DNA from: Chitinophagales bacterium | Lineage (GTDB): Bacteria > Bacteroidota > Bacteroidia > Chitinophagales > UBA10324 | Length of the DNA stretch: 64,000 bases | Direction: 5' to 3' | Assembly (NCBI GenBank): GCA_013816805.1 | Contig: JACDDS010000010.1 | Location: forward strand, 62,001 to 126,000 | Part shown: positions 2,806-36,003 of the stretch, in pieces | How positions within the stretch are numbered: position 1 is the first letter of the stretch | How the letters are laid out: every line of letters begins with the position of its first letter | The notes under the pieces: generated by a model | Seen by the model: the letters and a program-made list of their open reading frames with translations, nothing else | Database searches by the model: none | What the model was told of the DNA's origin: nothing | Translations under genes and position numbers: made by a program

Positions 2806-4917
2806 ATGAAAAAATATTTTTTATTAGGTTTCTTATTAATAAGTTTTTTACATGTTAAAAAAGGTTTTGCCCAGTTTGAATACATTTCTCCCAAACCGAA
2901 TAGCATATATCATAATACCACTACAAATATTATTCTAAAAAACGGGGCACTTATAGACAGTACCTCACTGTCAGACAGCCTCTTTACGGTTACCGGCACA
3001 CTCAGCGGAAATCATACAGTTACTTTAATCCTTTCCGACGATAAAAAAACTATATTAATATATACCCAGCTTCCTTTTTCCCAAGGTGAAACTGTAACTG
3101 TAACGGTAGATTCTGCAATAAAAAAGCAAACCGGTGAGATCATCGCTGGTACCAGGTTTCAATTTCAAACGCATCCTGCGTTTACTGCTGGCAGACAGGC
3201 AGAGATGAAAAATGCTTTGGAAAAAATTTATAGCGATGAGCGTGGACTTAATCAGCTTAAAGTAAACCGGTCACAGTCAGATTCTATACCTCTTCCCCAA
3301 TATGAGATTACTTCCACCGGAAAAGAATTTACAGGTGATGCTTTCTTCTACAATTTTAAAAGCACAATTCCGGGAGATCAGACTGATGATTACCAGTTCC
3401 GAACCATACTTAAAGATAGCGGCGATTCCGTATATGCAGTTCGCAATAATAATGCAGGCATAGATTTTAAGATAAATCATAATGGATATCTTACCTACTA
3501 TAATGAAGAAGACAGTGGTTTTGAAATGATGGACTCTAATTACCGTGTTATAGATTCATTTTTTGCAGGAAACGGGTACCAGGCAGATAACCATGAATTC
3601 CAGATTTTCCCTGACGGTCATTGCTTTTTTCTGAGCTACGATGTACAGGTGCTAAACATGAAATTATATTATCCCAATGGCGATACAGCAGCCAATGTTA
3701 CCGGAACCATATTACAGGAACTGGATAAAAATAAACATGTAGTTTTTGAATGGAGAAGCTGGGATAACTTTGCCATTAATGATTCTTACATAGATGCTAA
3801 TAATATACACGACGTAGACCTGGTTCACGGAAATGCTATTGAAATTGATGCAGATAGTAATATTCTTCTCTCATCCCGGCATTTAAGTGAAATCACAAAA
3901 ATTGATCACAATACTGGAGGAACTATTTGGAGATGGGGTGGCAAAAACAACCAGTTCACGTTTATAAACGATACGGTAAACCGTAACCAGTTTTATTACC
4001 AGCACGATATTCGTCGCTTACCTAATGGAAACTATTCTCTTTTTAATAATAATAACACGCAACCCACTCCCTCTTCCGCAAAGGAATATACACTGGATCC
4101 TATAAATAAAACTGCTACATTGAAATGGATCTTCATCCGTCCCCCCATTGATGACAAAAAGTTAAACAGCAATGCAATGGGTAATGTGCAGCTACTGCCG
4201 AACGGCGATCGTTTTATTTGCTGGGGACTTATTGCACCTACGGACCCGCCAGCGCCAATGCCCAATTTTACAGAAGTGGATTCTCTTGGTAACATTGTGT
4301 GGGAATTCCGATTTACAGGCAATGAGGGATATTTTTCTTACCGCGCCTTTAAATTTAACTGGGAACGATGTGGAGCACCGTTGCCCGAATCACTTGCCAT
4401 TAGCGATATTACCTCAAAATCTGCGAACTTTTCCTGGGGAGTACCTTCTTATGCCTCTCAATTCGAGTTTGATTATAAGACCGATTCCAGCACTGAATGG
4501 ACCAGCTTCGTAACCGCCGACCATTCCTATTTTTTAACTGATTTGATGCCTGAGACCGTTTATGACTGGCGGATCAGAACGGTATGCACTGTTTTTAATG
4601 ACAGCTCTGAATATTCCCCGATCCAGAAATTTAATACTATTGCGAGCACTATTTCTCAATCGGCCGGAACGAATTTTTATTTTTATCCAAATCCTGCAAG
4701 TGATCGCTTACGGCTGAATTTCGATTTACAAAAAAGCAGCACCGTTACATTCTTTATTTCCAACGTGATTGGGGAAGCTATTTACTCAAAGCAATGGACT
4801 GCGAAAGAGGGCTTCAATTCAAATGAGATTTATTTACCCGCACTTTCTTCCGGCATTTATTTTACAAACTTTAAAAGTAATACGGGGGAGGCCCACAAGC
4901 AATTAGTTATTAGGTGA
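2806..4917 (+). CDS. Secreted arylsulfotransferase-like (ASST) protein with T9SS sorting domain, paralog 2
   Basis: This 703-residue protein has the same architecture as the upstream gene: signal peptide ending KKGFAQF, N-terminal beta domain, ASST-like propeller with VHGNAIE, SSRHLSEITK and YQHDIRRL, fibronectin type III domain, and a T9SS type A domain starting FYPNPAS. Long stretches are nearly identical to paralog 1, pointing to a local tandem duplication. The 109-base gap upstream contains no obvious terminator, so it may be co-transcribed with paralog 1. The acceptor and donor of any sulfotransfer cannot be told from the sequence. Confidence 0.85.
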   Translation: MKKYFLLGFLLISFLHVKKGFAQFEYISPKPNSIYHNTTTNIILKNGALIDSTSLSDSLFTVTGTLSGNHTVTLILSDDKKTILIYTQLPFSQGETVTVTVDSAIKKQTGEIIAGTRFQFQTHPAFTAGRQAEMKNALEKIYSDERGLNQLKVNRSQSDSIPLPQYEITSTGKEFTGDAFFYNFKSTIPGDQTDDYQFRTILKDSGDSVYAVRNNNAGIDFKINHNGYLTYYNEEDSGFEMMDSNYRVIDSFFAGNGYQADNHEFQIFPDGHCFFLSYDVQVLNMKLYYPNGDTAANVTGTILQELDKNKHVVFEWRSWDNFAINDSYIDANNIHDVDLVHGNAIEIDADSNILLSSRHLSEITKIDHNTGGTIWRWGGKNNQFTFINDTVNRNQFYYQHDIRRLPNGNYSLFNNNNTQPTPSSAKEYTLDPINKTATLKWIFIRPPIDDKKLNSNAMGNVQLLPNGDRFICWGLIAPTDPPAPMPNFTEVDSLGNIVWEFRFTGNEGYFSYRAFKFNWERCGAPLPESLAISDITSKSANFSWGVPSYASQFEFDYKTDSSTEWTSFVTADHSYFLTDLMPETVYDWRIRTVCTVFNDSSEYSPIQKFNTIASTISQSAGTNFYFYPNPASDRLRLNFDLQKSSTVTFFISNVIGEAIYSKQWTAKEGFNSNEIYLPALSSGIYFTNFKSNTGEAHKQLVIR

Positions 4918-5095
4918 ATTAAAGAGTCAAATATTTCGGGGCCTAAACCTTTTGCCGGATCTCTCGTAAAAGAGCTTGCACTTTTCAAAATAAATCCACT
5001 CTGAATTTGAACCTTATCCATTCATCCGCAGGTGGTTTATACTGCGGAAAGTATTTTATCCAAACACCATTTCTTAACAACCTGTAATCGTAATC

Positions 5096-7198
5096 ATGAA
5101 AAAAAAGCGCTCTTTAATAGCTTCCTGTTTATTTGTATGCCTTTCAGTAATTGTTAATGCCCAATTCAATTATATCAGCCCTGTTCCCGGGTCAAAGTAT
5201 CATTATCCGCAGGAAACAATTATTCTTAAAACCGGTGAAGCCTTTGATGAAAATTCAACTCTGAAAAAAGACATCGTCGAAATCTACGGTTCCAAAAGCG
5301 GCAAACACGGGTGGAAGACAATTCTTTCTGAAAATAAAACACTGATCATTAAACCTGAACCGGAATTTGCATGGAATGAAACAGTAACTGTAATCGTCCA
5401 TAATAATCTTAAAAAGAAAGATGGCACTACCATAACAGGCAACTCTTTTTCTTTCGATATCAGAAATGGAATCTCAACAGAGGAAAGAGAGCGCTATCTC
5501 CGGAGCGATAAAGAAATAATACGGGAAGATTTTCCGAATAATATATTACCTGAACAATTACGAACAGGCAATCTGGATTCCATGCCCACCTTTGTTATCA
5601 ATGTAAATAATAACCCCGCGCATGGACAAATCTTTTATGATAACCAGTCGGATGATGAAAATGATACAAACTCTTTTCCCACCATTATCAATAACAACGG
5701 CTCCATAATTTGGGCAAAGGATTTAGGCATGAACGGACACGATTTTAAGATTAATTATAATGGCTATCTCACCTATTATGATCTGGTAAATTTTCAGTGG
5801 ATCATTATGGATTCAAATTATAACCGGATTGATTCTGTTCAATGCGGAAACGGATATGAATTAGAGACCAACGGCCACGATTGTGTTATCTATCCTGATA
5901 AGCATACATTCCTCCTTGCGTATGATGATCAAACTATTGACATGAGCCAGGTAGTCGCGGGGGGGAATTCGGATGCAACCGTAAAAGGCCTGATTGTGCA
6001 GGAACTGGACATCAAAAAGAATGTAGTATTTCAATGGAGAAGCTGGGACCACTTCCAAATAACGGATGCCGACTCAAACACTGTGCTCACCGGGCTTACC
6101 GTGGATTACGTTCATGGAAACGCAGTGGAGCGCGATAACGACGGCAATATAATGGTCTCCTGCCGCAATCTGTGCGAGATTACTAAAATCAATACCTCTA
6201 CCGGCGATATTATATGGAGGATGGGCGGAGAAAATAACCAGTTTAAATTTTTGAAGGACAATATTCCGCAGCATTTCAGCTACCAGCATGATATCCGCAG
6301 AATCACAAATGGCCATGTTACCCTTTTCAATGATGGAGATTATCTTCCTGTTCAAATATCGAGCGCCAAGGAATATGCATTGGATGAAGTAAATAAGGTT
6401 GCCACACTTACCTGGTATTATGAGCATCCGGATATTAATGGCAATCATGTGTACGGACGCGCTTCCGGAAGCACTCAACGCCTGCCCAATGGAAATACCA
6501 TGATCAGCTGGGGAACGATATATGCCGACCAGGGAATTCCAAATATTACGGAGGTTGATCTCAATAAAAACATTACCTGGGAAATGACTTTCGACGATGG
6601 AACTCAAAGAAGTTACCGCACGCATAAGTATGCATGGAATCCCTGCAGCCGCATTACCTCTTACACCATGAATGCCGCACCCGGAAAAACACAAGTGACT
6701 TTATCGTGGGGGGATGCCACCGGCGCTACTAAATACAAGGTATACTACCGGATGGCAGGAACCGGCACCTGGATCACTGCAGGAAAAACAAGCAGCACCC
6801 AATTGGTTATAAAAAATCTTATAACTTCCACTAAGTATGAATGGAGGGTAAAAACGATCTGCTCCGGCAATGGGACTTCCCATTATTCTGAAACAGCTTC
6901 GTTTACTACACTTTCGGCCAGAGAAACAGATCCTCTAAACAGTGGCACTGATTTGCTTGATGCTGAAGTTTATCCTAATCCTGCATTCGCGGTGATTACC
7001 CTATCAATAAAAGGAGATAGTGGAAATGAGCCTGCTTTAGTCACTATCCGTAATATGCTCGGTGAAATTCAAATGACACAGGAAATTGCTAATGCAGGGC
7101 AAATACAGTTGAACGTTCAGAATTTATCTAAAGGCTTTTATACTGCAGAAATACGTTGCGGAGCGAAATCGGTTATTAAAAAATTTATAAAGGAATAG
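5096..7198 (+). CDS. Secreted arylsulfotransferase-like (ASST) protein with T9SS sorting domain, diverged paralog 3
   Basis: This 700-residue protein is the most diverged of the three paralogs. It has a signal peptide ending VNAQF, the N-terminal beta domain, the propeller with VHGNAVE and YQHDIRRI, a fibronectin type III domain and a T9SS type A domain (VYPNPAF). Where paralogs 1 and 2 have SSRHLSE it reads SCRNLCE, so the histidine after the arginine is asparagine. Whether that residue takes part in catalysis in this branch is unknown. The change may mean a different substrate or loss of activity. Confidence 0.85.
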   Translation: MKKKRSLIASCLFVCLSVIVNAQFNYISPVPGSKYHYPQETIILKTGEAFDENSTLKKDIVEIYGSKSGKHGWKTILSENKTLIIKPEPEFAWNETVTVIVHNNLKKKDGTTITGNSFSFDIRNGISTEERERYLRSDKEIIREDFPNNILPEQLRTGNLDSMPTFVINVNNNPAHGQIFYDNQSDDENDTNSFPTIINNNGSIIWAKDLGMNGHDFKINYNGYLTYYDLVNFQWIIMDSNYNRIDSVQCGNGYELETNGHDCVIYPDKHTFLLAYDDQTIDMSQVVAGGNSDATVKGLIVQELDIKKNVVFQWRSWDHFQITDADSNTVLTGLTVDYVHGNAVERDNDGNIMVSCRNLCEITKINTSTGDIIWRMGGENNQFKFLKDNIPQHFSYQHDIRRITNGHVTLFNDGDYLPVQISSAKEYALDEVNKVATLTWYYEHPDINGNHVYGRASGSTQRLPNGNTMISWGTIYADQGIPNITEVDLNKNITWEMTFDDGTQRSYRTHKYAWNPCSRITSYTMNAAPGKTQVTLSWGDATGATKYKVYYRMAGTGTWITAGKTSSTQLVIKNLITSTKYEWRVKTICSGNGTSHYSETASFTTLSARETDPLNSGTDLLDAEVYPNPAFAVITLSIKGDSGNEPALVTIRNMLGEIQMTQEIANAGQIQLNVQNLSKGFYTAEIRCGAKSVIKKFIKE

Positions 7199-32299: not shown

Positions 32300-32331
32300 T
32301 TCGTCAATCCATCGGCCATATATTAGTTTTG
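32300..32331 (+). promoter_or_regulatory. Candidate Bacteroidota promoter for leuS
   Basis: A perfect TAnnTTTG element (TAGTTTTG, 32324-32331) is preceded at 20 bases by TTCG (32300-32303), one mismatch from TTTG. The start codon of leuS is 22 bases after the -7 element. Confidence 0.55.
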
Positions 32332-32353
32332 CAGACATTTAGATGTAATAGTA

Positions 32354-35300
32354 ATGAAGGAAATTGATTTTTTCGAAGTTGAAAAAAGGGTGAAAGAAAT
32401 CTGGAAGGCACAGGATGTATTCCGGGTAAACTCCGATCCTTCCAGACCAAAATATTATGTGCTGGATATGTTTCCATATCCTTCAGGAGCAGGGCTTCAT
32501 GTGGGTCATCCTCTCGGGTATATTGCGTCTGATATTATTTCCCGGTATAAGCGATTGAAGGGGTTTAATGTATTGCATCCAATGGGATACGATTCTTTTG
32601 GACTTCCTGCGGAGCAGTATGCCATTCAAACCGGCCAACATCCTGCAATTACTACCGAAACAAATATTAAAACATTTCGTGAACAGCTCGATAAACTAGG
32701 ACTTTCTTATGATTGGAGTCGCGAAATACGAACCAGTGATCCTGAATTTTATAAATGGACCCAATGGATTTTTATACAACTCTTTCATTCGTGGTATAAT
32801 AATAAAACAGACCGGGCAGAGGGCATTGACGTTCTTATCAATGAATTTGAAAATTCGGGAAATAAAAATGTTCATGCGGCTTGCAATGAAGTAAATATTT
32901 TTTCAGCAGATGATTGGAAAGGATTTTCTGAAAAAGTAAAATCTGTTATCCTGCTGAACTATCGTCTTGCCTACATAGCAGACTCCTGGGTAAACTGGTG
33001 TCCGGCTTTGGGAACTGTTCTTGCCAACGATGAAGTAAAGGATGGCGGAAGCGAACGAGGTGGTTATCCTGTGATAAGAAAAATAATGAAGCAGTGGAGC
33101 CTTCGCATCACTGCTTATGCTGAACGGCTATTATCGGCCTTGGAAAAACTAGATTGGAGTGATTCTATAAAGGAAACCCAAAAAAATTGGATTGGAAAAA
33201 GCGCAGGCTGCACCATCGCGTTTCAGGTTGAAGATTCAAAGGTTCATGGCGGAACTTCAAATCTTAAAATTGAAGTGTTTACCACAAGACCCGATACTAT
33301 TTTTGGAGTATCGTATCTCGCCCTGGCTCCGGAACATGAGCTTATTGAAAAGATTACTACTCCGGAATATAAAAATGCAGTTGATGAGTATGTGAACTAT
33401 GCAAAAAACCGCAGCGAGCGAGACCGCATGGCGGATGTAAAAAAAATAACGGGTCAATTCACCGGCGCATATGCAGTACATCCTTTCACGAAAAGAAACA
33501 TTCCTGTCTGGATTGCAGAGTATGTCCTTGCCGGCTACGGCACGGGCGCATTGATGGCCGTTCCTGCCCACGACCAGCGGGACTGGAACTTCGCAAAACA
33601 TTTTGAAAAGGATTTAATGGAGCAGTTGAGGCACAGCCCTATAATAGAAGTTATTTCAGGAGGAAATGTCAATAAGGAGGCATATGAAGAATTCTATTCA
33701 GCCGGACACTTAGTAAATTCTGAAATGTTTAATGGCAATTCCCCCGTAGTTGCAAAAGTTCAAGTGATAAACTTCATTGTGGATGAGGGAATAGGTAAAC
33801 GCAAAATAAATTACAAAATGCGCGATGCCATTTTCGGAAGGCAACGCTATTGGGGAGAACCTATTCCTATTTACTATGACGAAGAGGGAATTCCCTATAC
33901 TGTTGATGAAGATGATTTACCAGTCATTTTGCCTGAGGTAGATAAATATCTTCCCACTGAAACCGGCGAACCACCATTGGCAAGGGCAAAGGATTGGACC
34001 TACTCACCGCCGTCTCACCTTTCCTTAGATGAGGAAGATAGCAGGCATGCGCGCACGCAAGTCCTCTCCCTGGGAGAGGACTTGCGTGAGGTAAAAAACA
34101 TAGAAAGAACTAGCGATGAAAATGAAGTAAGGAAGCCTGGCTACATGACTGCCGATGAGCAAACATGGTTTAGGCATAAAAATAATGCTAATGAATTAAG
34201 AAGAGAGGCTACCCCCGCAGAGATGATTTTATGGGGAGCACTTCGAAATAAAAAATTAGGAGTTCGATTCAGACGACAGCATGTGATTGAAAATTTTATT
34301 GTTGATTTTGTAAGCCTGGAAAAAAAATTGGTTATAGAGCTGGATGGTGAAGTTCATAAGCAGCAACAAGATCATGACGATTACCGCACACAAAGATTAA
34401 TGGAATACGGGTACCATGTATTGCGTTTTTGGAATGCTGAAGTTATTGATAATACAAGAAAGGTGATTGAAAGGATTGAACAGGCGCTTCGGGACCCTCA
34501 CCCAGAAATGGGGATTGAAAGAACAAAACAGGCATCTCAAGAATCTCCTCCCCAACCCTTCTCCAAAGGAGAAGGGAATATTCCTACCCACAAGGAAGAT
34601 TTGGAGGGTGCCTACCCTCTTGAAACCACCACCATGCCCGGCTGGGCAGGCAGCAGCTGGTATTATTTGCGCTACGAAGATCCCGGCTACCCTGATCGGT
34701 TCGCATCCAAAGAAGCTGTTGATTACTGGCAGAACATTGATCTCTATTTAGGTGGTGATGAGCATGCAACCGGTCATCTGTTTTATTTCCGCTTCTGGAC
34801 AAAATTTTTATTCGATAGAGGATGGATTCCTTTTGATGAGCCTGCAAAGAAATTGGTTAATCAGGGTAAGATACAGGGGGTATCTAAATTTATATATGAA
34901 ATAAAACCAATAGGTACATTAAACACAGTGTCCGTAGTAGTAGAGAAATCCAATGAGATTTATATATCCTCAAGTCTTTACGAAAAATATCGAACACAAA
35001 AAATAGATCCCAAAACTTTACTTTCTATCATTAACTCGCAATTTCCAGGCTATGTTGATATTGAAGATGTACTGGAAGATCAACATTTTTTGATAACACC
35101 TAAACGTGTAAATGTAAAATATGTGAATGGAAATGAATTGAATACTGAAGCTATTAAAAAGGAAACTTTTGAATTTGGTAATTCCGCATTTATAAAAGAT
35201 GATGGAAAATATCTTTGTGGCAATGCAGTTGAGAAAATGTCTAAAAGGTATGGCAACGTCGTCAATCCCGATGATGTCTTAAAAGATTATGGTGCCGATT

Positions 35301-35917
35301 GCTTTCGGATGTATGAAATGTTTCTTGGTCCTTTGGAGCAAAATAAACCCTGGGATACGAAAGGCATTGACGGAGTTTCCCGCTTCCTAAAAAAATTCTG
35401 GAAATTATTTTGTGACAGCAACGGCAACTGGACGGTTAATCATGACAAGGCAACTAATGAGGAATTAAAAATTCTTCATCGTACCATAAAAAAAACAGGT
35501 GAAGATATTGATCGTTTATCCTTCAACACTTCAGTAAGTTCATTTATGATTTGTGTGAATGAATTGACGGAACGCAATTGCCATAAACAGGAAATACTGG
35601 AACCATTGCTGATTATTCTTTCTCCTTTCGCTCCTTTTTTAACAGAATACCTGTGGGAAAAAATGGATTATAAAGAGTCTATTATCCAAGCTTCTTTTCC
35701 TCAATACGATGAATTATTGTTGGTTGAGAAAACTTTTGAATATCCGGTAGCCATAAACGGAAAAACCCGGATCAGGTTAATCCTTTCACTCGATTTATCC
35801 TCGGCAGAAGTGGAAAAAGAAGTGCTTCAGATAAGTGACCTTAAGAAATACTTTGATGGTAAATCACCAAAAAAAATAATTTATATAAAAGGAAAAATGA
35901 TCAATGTGGTGGTCTGA
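32354..35917 (+). CDS. leuS: Leucyl-tRNA synthetase with an in-frame DUF559 endonuclease-domain insertion
   Basis: An 1187-residue LeuRS, about 190 residues longer than it would be without the insertion. HVGH (49-52, the HIGH motif), the editing domain with TTRPDTIFG, RQRYWGEPIP, TMPGWAGSSWYYLRY and KMSKR (961-965, the KMSKS motif) are all present and in order, so charging of tRNA-Leu should be kept. Between LPVILPEVDKYLPTETGEPPL and YPLETTTMPGW lies an extra stretch (about 560-746) that carries a complete DUF559 nuclease domain. The frame is open throughout. As the only leuS in view it is probably essential, so the insertion must be tolerated in a surface loop. Confidence 0.95.
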   Translation: MKEIDFFEVEKRVKEIWKAQDVFRVNSDPSRPKYYVLDMFPYPSGAGLHVGHPLGYIASDIISRYKRLKGFNVLHPMGYDSFGLPAEQYAIQTGQHPAITTETNIKTFREQLDKLGLSYDWSREIRTSDPEFYKWTQWIFIQLFHSWYNNKTDRAEGIDVLINEFENSGNKNVHAACNEVNIFSADDWKGFSEKVKSVILLNYRLAYIADSWVNWCPALGTVLANDEVKDGGSERGGYPVIRKIMKQWSLRITAYAERLLSALEKLDWSDSIKETQKNWIGKSAGCTIAFQVEDSKVHGGTSNLKIEVFTTRPDTIFGVSYLALAPEHELIEKITTPEYKNAVDEYVNYAKNRSERDRMADVKKITGQFTGAYAVHPFTKRNIPVWIAEYVLAGYGTGALMAVPAHDQRDWNFAKHFEKDLMEQLRHSPIIEVISGGNVNKEAYEEFYSAGHLVNSEMFNGNSPVVAKVQVINFIVDEGIGKRKINYKMRDAIFGRQRYWGEPIPIYYDEEGIPYTVDEDDLPVILPEVDKYLPTETGEPPLARAKDWTYSPPSHLSLDEEDSRHARTQVLSLGEDLREVKNIERTSDENEVRKPGYMTADEQTWFRHKNNANELRREATPAEMILWGALRNKKLGVRFRRQHVIENFIVDFVSLEKKLVIELDGEVHKQQQDHDDYRTQRLMEYGYHVLRFWNAEVIDNTRKVIERIEQALRDPHPEMGIERTKQASQESPPQPFSKGEGNIPTHKEDLEGAYPLETTTMPGWAGSSWYYLRYEDPGYPDRFASKEAVDYWQNIDLYLGGDEHATGHLFYFRFWTKFLFDRGWIPFDEPAKKLVNQGKIQGVSKFIYEIKPIGTLNTVSVVVEKSNEIYISSSLYEKYRTQKIDPKTLLSIINSQFPGYVDIEDVLEDQHFLITPKRVNVKYVNGNELNTEAIKKETFEFGNSAFIKDDGKYLCGNAVEKMSKRYGNVVNPDDVLKDYGADCFRMYEMFLGPLEQNKPWDTKGIDGVSRFLKKFWKLFCDSNGNWTVNHDKATNEELKILHRTIKKTGEDIDRLSFNTSVSSFMICVNELTERNCHKQEILEPLLIILSPFAPFLTEYLWEKMDYKESIIQASFPQYDELLLVEKTFEYPVAINGKTRIRLILSLDLSSAEVEKEVLQISDLKKYFDGKSPKKIIYIKGKMINVVV
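34032..34039 (+). repeat. Left 8-bp direct repeat AGGAAGAT
   Basis: Identical to 34593-34600 and in the same codon phase (Glu-Asp in both). It may be a target-site duplication, though an 8-bp match can also be chance. Confidence 0.45.
34054..34088. repeat. Perfect hairpin with 17-bp arms inside leuS
   Basis: Arms 34054-34070 and 34072-34088 are exact inverse complements (starting CACGCAAGTCC) around a one-base loop. Such a strong palindrome inside a tRNA synthetase gene is unusual, and it marks the left flank of the DUF559 cassette. Confidence 0.9.
34556..34576. repeat. Perfect hairpin with 9-bp arms inside leuS
   Basis: CCCTTCTCC (34556-34564), loop AAA, GGAGAAGGG (34568-34576). It encodes PFSKGEG and lies on the right flank of the DUF559 cassette, 16 bases before the right direct repeat. 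Confidence 0.9.
34593..34600 (+). repeat. Right 8-bp direct repeat AGGAAGAT
   Basis: The second copy of the repeat at 34032-34039, read in the same phase, just before the resumption of conserved LeuRS sequence (YPLETTTMPGW). Confidence 0.45.
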
Positions 35918-36003
35918 ACTGTGAGGCGACGATAAACCCATATTGAGGCTTTAGTTGATAGGGATTCTTCAAACATCAGAACTATTGCTCCACTTTATAA
36001 AAT

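Follow-up and report, generated by a model that had tools for sequence, protein, structure and literature searches.

A hairpin-bounded DUF559 nuclease read in frame within leucyl-tRNA synthetase: a probable homing-like element recurrent in Bacteroidota

Within the window (the whole 64-kb stretch of DNA analyzed here), the leucyl-tRNA synthetase (LeuRS) gene leuS carries about 200 extra codons (~600 bp) encoding a complete DUF559 domain. Hairpins flank this domain, and inserts of the same kind are present in frame in more than 20 host families. We consider it probable that the insert is a selfish, homing-like nuclease element, bounded by palindromes and translated along with its host as an additional domain that the host tolerates. 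The anatomy and recurrence of the element can be read from sequence, from which we infer its movement.

Results

The insert in leuS and its boundaries

The leuS frame runs unbroken through 1187 codons, and the editing, catalytic and anticodon domains of LeuRS are all matched by Pfam in the chimera. Alignments with LeuRS of uninterrupted relatives end at about residues 551-558 and restart at 751-754, and the insert boundaries were therefore placed where the alignment breaks and resumes (Table 1). One uninterrupted relative (G005), whose LeuRS is 69% identical over the N-terminal part, reads GEPPLARASNWKYKEKYNFELTTMPGW at this site. Thus, the original prediction of a DUF559 domain lodged in frame within LeuRS, with LeuRS motifs intact on either side, is confirmed by the open frame, the Pfam matches and the uninterrupted alleles. 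The latter emerged, in both close and distant relatives, from the alignment that had been proposed as a check. The predicted coordinates (34032-34592) were nearly right, the insert being slightly wider.

Table 1. Positions of the features discussed in the text
Feature	Position	Strand	Details and basis
leuS, leucyl-tRNA synthetase, host frame	32354..35917	+	1187 aa plus stop; ORF, Pfam, TIGR00396
Insert, aa 551-753	34004..34612	+	missing in uninterrupted relatives; ends +/- few codons
Left palindrome	34054..34088	.	17-bp perfect hairpin, CCTCTCC core, runs into GTGAGG arm; arms, DNA fold
DUF559 nuclease domain, aa 608-712	34175..34489	+	Vsr/EDxHD-like fold; Pfam, profile, fold
E623 codon to D664 codon	34220..34345	+	E623, D651, E662, D664; then H668, D675; conserved columns
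Right palindrome	34556..34576	.	9-bp hairpin CCCTTCTCC-AAA-GGAGAAGGG, CCTCCCCAA arm before; hairpin scan, DNA fold
Nuclease-less palindrome pair, 53-aa in-frame stretch in type I R-like gene	L170 2-2899, G000:C15 near 96278	-	

The interrupted gene is the only LeuRS of the source genome: it scores 914 bits over its joined pieces, and no second listed locus exceeds the TIGR00396 cut-off. In 13 further carrier genomes the carrier locus is again the sole LeuRS listed above the family cut-off; one such locus is truncated by the contig end (G004) and another has its C-terminal part in a separate frame (G162). The latter (G162:C350 685-4117) is split 3′ of the insert into frames of 865 and 307 aa, which may reflect either a sequencing error or a real break. 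A second LeuRS-like locus, broken and sub-threshold, is present in G043 (C80 2892-4139), where the main LeuRS has the insert. Judging by these alignments and searches, the window insert occupies, without a shift of frame, a variable loop of the sole leuS, and the host domains are intact.

Two simpler accounts of the insert were rejected. An old lineage-specific LeuRS domain is incompatible with the absence of the insert from both close and distant relatives. An assembly artefact is at odds with the recurrence of the pattern in many assemblies, including those of the named isolates Ilyomonas limi, Pedobacter sp. Leaf194, Gillisia mitskevichiae DSM 19839, Flavobacterium cucumis DSM 18830 and Hymenobacter psychrotolerans DSM 18569. 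An AlphaFold model of the full-length chimera (18 sequences; mean pLDDT 62, pTM 0.40) was too poor for placing the domain relative to its host and was therefore set aside.

The nuclease domain

The domain matches PF04480 (DUF559) with 117.8 bits against a cut-off of 20.6, and the sole other Pfam match in the insert, MTES_1575, is sub-threshold and overlaps DUF559. The positions of the two glutamates and two aspartates named in the original prediction are right in the translation, and they are followed by a histidine and a further aspartate (Table 1). The columns of the four acids and of the later aspartate are kept in all 80 in-gene copies that we collected (see below), and that of the histidine in 79. 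Presumably E623, D651, E662 and D664 are the catalytic residues, as the prediction and the type of fold would have it.

In a search against PDB, the domain profile (A3) matched 3hrl with E = 1.7e-31 and 3r3p, the homing endonuclease I-Bth0305I, with E = 2.8e-6. The structural model of the isolated domain (mean pLDDT 81) gave the same picture, with fold alignments to 3hrl (Z = 16.9), I-Bth0305I (Z = 13.0; rmsd 2.3 over 90 residues) and Vsr (Z = 10.5). By both profile and modeled fold, the nuclease groups with I-Bth0305I and Vsr, and it is apparently an intact nuclease of the homing type. DNA binding could be supplied by the host or by the linkers. An extract of PMC9403480 already places a DUF559 gene in the EDxHD homing family.

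Palindromic ends

The hairpins flanking the domain, which have no place in the original prediction, are the key to the element. The left arms (34054-34070 and 34072-34088) are 100% complementary with 1 nt between them, and the hairpin folds as DNA at -20.3 kcal/mol (z -7.5). The right one folds at -9.2 kcal/mol (z -3.5); of all hairpins in the 64-kb window, it alone passes a filter of stem at least 7, loop 2-7 and a C/T-rich arm. In DNA folding both outperform all 200 shuffles.

Palindromic ends of this kind recur in many copies. C-rich hairpins are found on both sides of 88 of 133 in-gene copies compared with 11 of 480 random windows. An end unit usually combines an arm with a hairpin, CCTCACCCC-nn-CCCCTCTCC-loop-GGAGAGGGG; the arm is outermost in most cases, and the order is sometimes reversed (56 to 12 among in-gene copies). 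When the 250 nt to the left of the domain were compared with the 300 nt to its right at a threshold score of 14, terminal inverted repeats (TIRs) were detected in 48 of the 80 in-gene copies and 14 of the 24 free ones, but in just 1 of 520 control segments drawn from these loci. A score of at least 14 was reached by 54% of own end pairs and 6% of mispaired ends (180 copies, both sets); the ends of one element therefore match each other far better than they match those of others. The two ends of the window copy do not match each other (score 7, equal to background), each being a hairpin by itself; they may differ in origin or have decayed. A transposon or MITE with target-site duplication was considered and dismissed: in 97 elements with clear inverted repeats, direct host repeats did not rise above chance, the lengths of flank repeats being as in mispaired controls.

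Does the nuclease belong to the palindromes, or is it merely their passenger? One could envisage the palindrome itself as the mobile unit, moved in trans by a RAYT/TnpA-REP (HUH) enzyme, all the more so since the source genome has a palindrome pair devoid of nuclease. The pattern CCTCTCC-loop-GGAGAGG, the one searched, occurs in this genome at two places, the leuS insert and C15:96278. At the second place two palindromes face each other, without a nuclease, in frame within a 966-aa ResIII/EcoEI_R_C protein. Three relatives, 62-69% identical to this type I R-like protein, lack query residues 456-508 and have 12 nt instead, and we therefore count the pair as a nuclease-less insertion. As far as these sequences tell, the source genome thus has two in-frame insertions, one with and one without a nuclease. 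It also has six weak Y1_Tnp matches, five of them over the cut-off (best 28 bits), and the layout of REPtrons is similar according to an extract of PMC8266576. Against mobilization in trans stand the occurrence of the searched pattern at only two places, which also led us to discard the idea of a dispersed palindrome family in this genome, and the hairpins of the two Y1_Tnp loci examined (at L171 there are two, of stem 10 and stem 8, and they are not of the C-rich kind; L172 has none with a stem of 8 or more). Furthermore, the nuclease keeps its acids and a low dN/dS (see below), and the similarity of TIRs goes, if weakly, with that of the nucleases (r = 0.205, p = 0.001; for pairs below 55% identity, r = 0.068, p = 0.08). 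A Y1 (HUH) transposase was sought in the element as well, and the non-LeuRS Pfam matches in the window chimera were DUF559 and the sub-threshold MTES_1575 alone. On the whole, we consider a passenger nuclease quite unlikely.

Recurrence across genomes and host genes

DUF559 had been expected to be normally free-standing. This does not hold in the phylum. PF04480 matched in 187 of the 396 genomes searched from the order and in 222 of the 395 from the phylum, and 74 and 50, respectively, of the best-scoring 150 matches lie in open frames of at least 300 aa. The suggestion to look for DUF559 within other housekeeping genes proved productive, the same kind of insert being found in many hosts. We read 104 distinct copies, 80 in long frames and 24 in short ones; long-frame places were preferentially fetched, and for that reason the host counts that follow are no estimate of frequency.

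The hosts of the 80 in-gene copies form 23 similarity clusters, some of which, such as restriction methylases, are possibly interrelated. LeuRS accounts for 24 copies (at two sites, A and B), MetH and IleRS for 12 each, HsdR for 5 and CinA for 4. Pfam and NCBIfam matches of representatives add MnmE, an Lhr-like helicase, UvrA, acetyl-CoA synthetase, adenine deaminase, RecQ, TrpA, an amino-acid kinase, several restriction-modification proteins and others, and Pfam further points to guanylate kinase, methylmalonyl-CoA mutase and others. A MetRS host, clustered together with LeuRS, was named by motif, and RecG, RecJ and ValRS hosts were likewise recognized by their motifs. Most copies (71 of 80) are internal, while 9 lie within 70 residues of a frame end and may be end fusions. 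At one locus (L090 957-2423 and downstream) DUF559 ends uroporphyrinogen decarboxylase C-terminally, and more such palindromes follow.

Named genomes were searched with a query built from in-gene copies, and the outcome is biased accordingly: the best 80 of 572 loci contain 81 copies, 56 in long and 25 in short frames. The long-frame copies belong to Bacteroidota in 55 cases and to a Paceibacterota MAG in one, whereas all 12 copies from Cyanobacteriota, Chloroflexota and Thermomicrobiota are among the short-frame ones. A LeuRS with a site-B DUF559 insert (L255 ~4209-6854) comes from a contig binned as Candidatus Paceibacterota, and either cross-phylum transfer or a binning error would account for it. 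Phage and plasmid records offered no lead to a vehicle: relatives were found in 3 of 50,697 phage and 36 of 72,556 plasmid records, all below 60% identity.

Insertion sites

The lengths of LeuRS loop B are bimodal, with 42 loops of 32-53 aa and 40 of 166-266 aa, in a set that is enriched for carriers and takes in one PBECR3 case (G037, see below). Several sites lie close to conserved sequence. Expressed as conservation percentiles, the flanks reach the 93rd downstream and 53rd upstream at LeuA, the 95th downstream and 87th upstream at LeuB, the 98th upstream at IleA, the 97th on both sides at MetH1 and the 99th at HsdR; the flanks of the IleB insert, at the 62nd, are not highly conserved. These values suggest that at LeuA, LeuB, IleA, MetH1 and HsdR the inserts adjoin highly conserved stretches on at least one side. 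We grade this pattern as suggestive because we chose the stretches by hand, at the motif closest to each insert, and because few sequences entered three of the four alignments (12 for IleRS, 9 for MetH and 5 for HsdR).

Location in essential genes, often adjoining conserved motifs, with a homing-type nuclease aboard, is also what one would expect of an unusual intein or intron, removed from the protein or RNA by a mechanism invisible to profiles. This is very improbable. The LeuRS sites are loops of variable length and the frame is open throughout. Moreover, intein families, including the Hint splicing domain, are missing among the Pfam and NCBIfam matches listed for the scanned chimeras (for UvrA, the best 25 of 178 NCBIfam matches), which upholds, as far as profiles go, the earlier statement that the insert is not an intein. 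Likewise, Rfam gave no match over 32300-36000 of the window at E up to 1, and in nine other loci, at gathering thresholds, it detected no intron, a SAM riboswitch being the sole match. The riboswitch lies upstream of an insert-carrying metH (L089 6752-6846, minus strand).

The same loops accommodate other sequences. In genus g31, three LeuRS without an insert (L175, L177 and L181) have in-frame short tandem repeats in the site-B loop, which therefore collects several kinds of repeat. A different nuclease, PBECR3, is present in frame in the loop immediately preceding TTRP(D/E)T in one LeuRS (L035 ~1836-2483, from G037) and one ValRS (L294, from G292), a place homologous to the DUF559 site in other species. 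The L035 insert has a 6-bp C-rich hairpin near its right end. Another LeuRS (L030 1-3111, minus strand, from G053) has an extra nuclease-like-looking stretch after query residue 850, with no Pfam match.

Distribution, trees and selection

In the genomes sampled, occupation is patchy, even within a genus. Genus g31 (18 genomes) has 15 readable LeuRS, of which 4 have the site-B insert and 11 do not; in the LeuRS tree of 12 of these g31 species the carriers do not form a single clade (AU p = 0.027), implying at least 2-3 changes. In the DUF559 tree, the window copy falls into a group of 61 rows (SH-aLRT 92) made up of in-gene copies only, with none of the 24 free ones; within it sites are clustered and hosts change. 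As proof of independent insertions at the same site this tree failed: with 111 columns it cannot reject a single origin for either LeuA (AU p = 0.33) or the four g31 LeuB inserts (p = 0.67).

The dN/dS of the domain is 0.03-0.11 in nine of the ten computable printed pairs, near the values of the hosts, and 0.34 in the remaining one (L083/L118); these ratios are rough because the dS of the domain exceeds 1 in eight of the ten pairs, and most other pairs are saturated. In one pair (L111/L121) similarity is higher for the element than for most of the surrounding IleRS, as would follow from a more recent exchange, and the zone of similarity is essentially the element alone. Two other pairs have no such zone, and a host tract that would indicate co-conversion of flanks was seen in none of the three pairs examined. 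In the L125/L129/L139 group, divergence is instead greater for the element than for its host.

A low dN/dS and full sets of acids would also be found in in-gene copies if the nuclease were useful to LeuRS and the other hosts, for instance in phage defence or DNA repair, and were kept for that reason as part of a domesticated bifunctional enzyme. The presence of the unrelated PBECR3 family at the homologous loop of LeuRS and ValRS may be read in the same way. A homing nuclease predicts conserved acids equally, though, and a function tied to the host is hard to square with more than 20 host families, with patchy presence within a genus and with free-standing copies that have the same palindromic ends. 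We therefore regard the new bifunctional synthetase-nuclease, one of two options in the original prediction, as unlikely, the same domain being present in so many host families. The other option, a selfish nuclease element in a tolerated loop, gains support from the uninterrupted alleles, the bounding hairpins and the recurrence in many hosts.

Discussion

Our preferred reading, that of a selfish homing-like element, can be spelled out as follows. The window copy would belong to an element widespread in Bacteroidota, in which the frame of a Vsr/EDxHD-type (DUF559) nuclease lies between C-rich palindromes. The nuclease would either form an additional domain of the host enzyme or be released from it. 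It might then recognize DNA coding for a conserved motif and cut alleles devoid of the element, often adjoining DNA that encodes such a strongly conserved motif, with insertion into the nearest tolerated loop; repair from the occupied copy would install the element, which amounts to homing. The palindromes might serve as recognition or replication ends that a ribosome can read through. With the frame kept and the loop tolerant, the host enzyme would remain active and the nuclease would be co-made. Since nothing is spliced out, only in-frame insertions in tolerated loops of indispensable genes would be expected to persist, and loss of the element would take a precise deletion from an essential gene. 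Movement, cutting and recognition of the hairpins are thus steps that we infer for the element.

Whether these elements deserve a class of their own is, in our estimation, an even question. Such a class would consist of autonomous hairpin-ended homing nucleases that become permanent, unspliced domains of essential enzymes, an intein-like lifestyle without splicing. It would include an adapted lineage and nuclease-less derivatives, with PBECR3 in the homologous LeuRS and ValRS loops as a convergent occupant of the niche.

If the reading is correct, one of the domains of conserved enzymes throughout the phylum is often a nuclease that is foreign and apparently active, and the annotation of such fusions changes, as they would not be multifunctional enzymes. 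The inserts would further provide a natural map of the LeuRS, IleRS, ValRS and MetH loops that tolerate a 110-residue domain plus linkers, and many natural replicates for testing whether homing elements are able to persist unspliced. Finally, DUF559, a common family that Pfam still lists as "of unknown function", would acquire a testable role.

Among the titles and abstract openings listed in searches of the open-access PMC literature, none describes such an in-frame, hairpin-ended DUF559 element, and comparison with known systems reveals likeness to several of them. We did not file the element as an intein, intron, REPtron or classical transposon because their defining features, when tested for, were not found. 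Inteins with a homing endonuclease likewise reside in frame in conserved genes, often adjoining conserved motifs, and have a homing-type nuclease; the present element, in contrast, has no splicing domain, occupies tolerated loops and, to judge from its sequence, is retained by the enzyme. In REPtrons (TnpA-REP/RAYT plus flanking REPs), evolution likewise combines a small enzyme gene with short flanking hairpins in both orientations, but they feature an HUH enzyme in place of the Vsr-like nuclease and are extragenic rather than intragenic and in frame. Free-standing DUF559 genes (PRK09767; PDB 3hrl) have the same domain family, with end inverted repeats in over half of the free copies sampled, whereas copies related to that of the window form the in-gene group from which those free copies are absent.

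The closest precedents are found in two other systems. EDxHD homing endonuclease I-Bth0305I (PDB 3r3p) has a homologous catalytic domain by profile and fold. It is listed in PDB as a mobile intron protein and, according to an extract of PMC3943268, has long extra DNA-binding parts; in the present element the domain lies between palindromes in a continuous frame, with no intron. Rickettsia palindromic elements, reported in frame in many unrelated protein genes (Ogata 2000 and 2002, via an extract of PMC10969869), are like the present element selfish palindromic DNA translated within their hosts. As described in that extract, they are ~150 bp long, encode a conserved peptide and come with no mention of a nuclease, whereas the element described here is ~600 bp long, resides in Bacteroidota rather than Rickettsia and encodes a complete nuclease.
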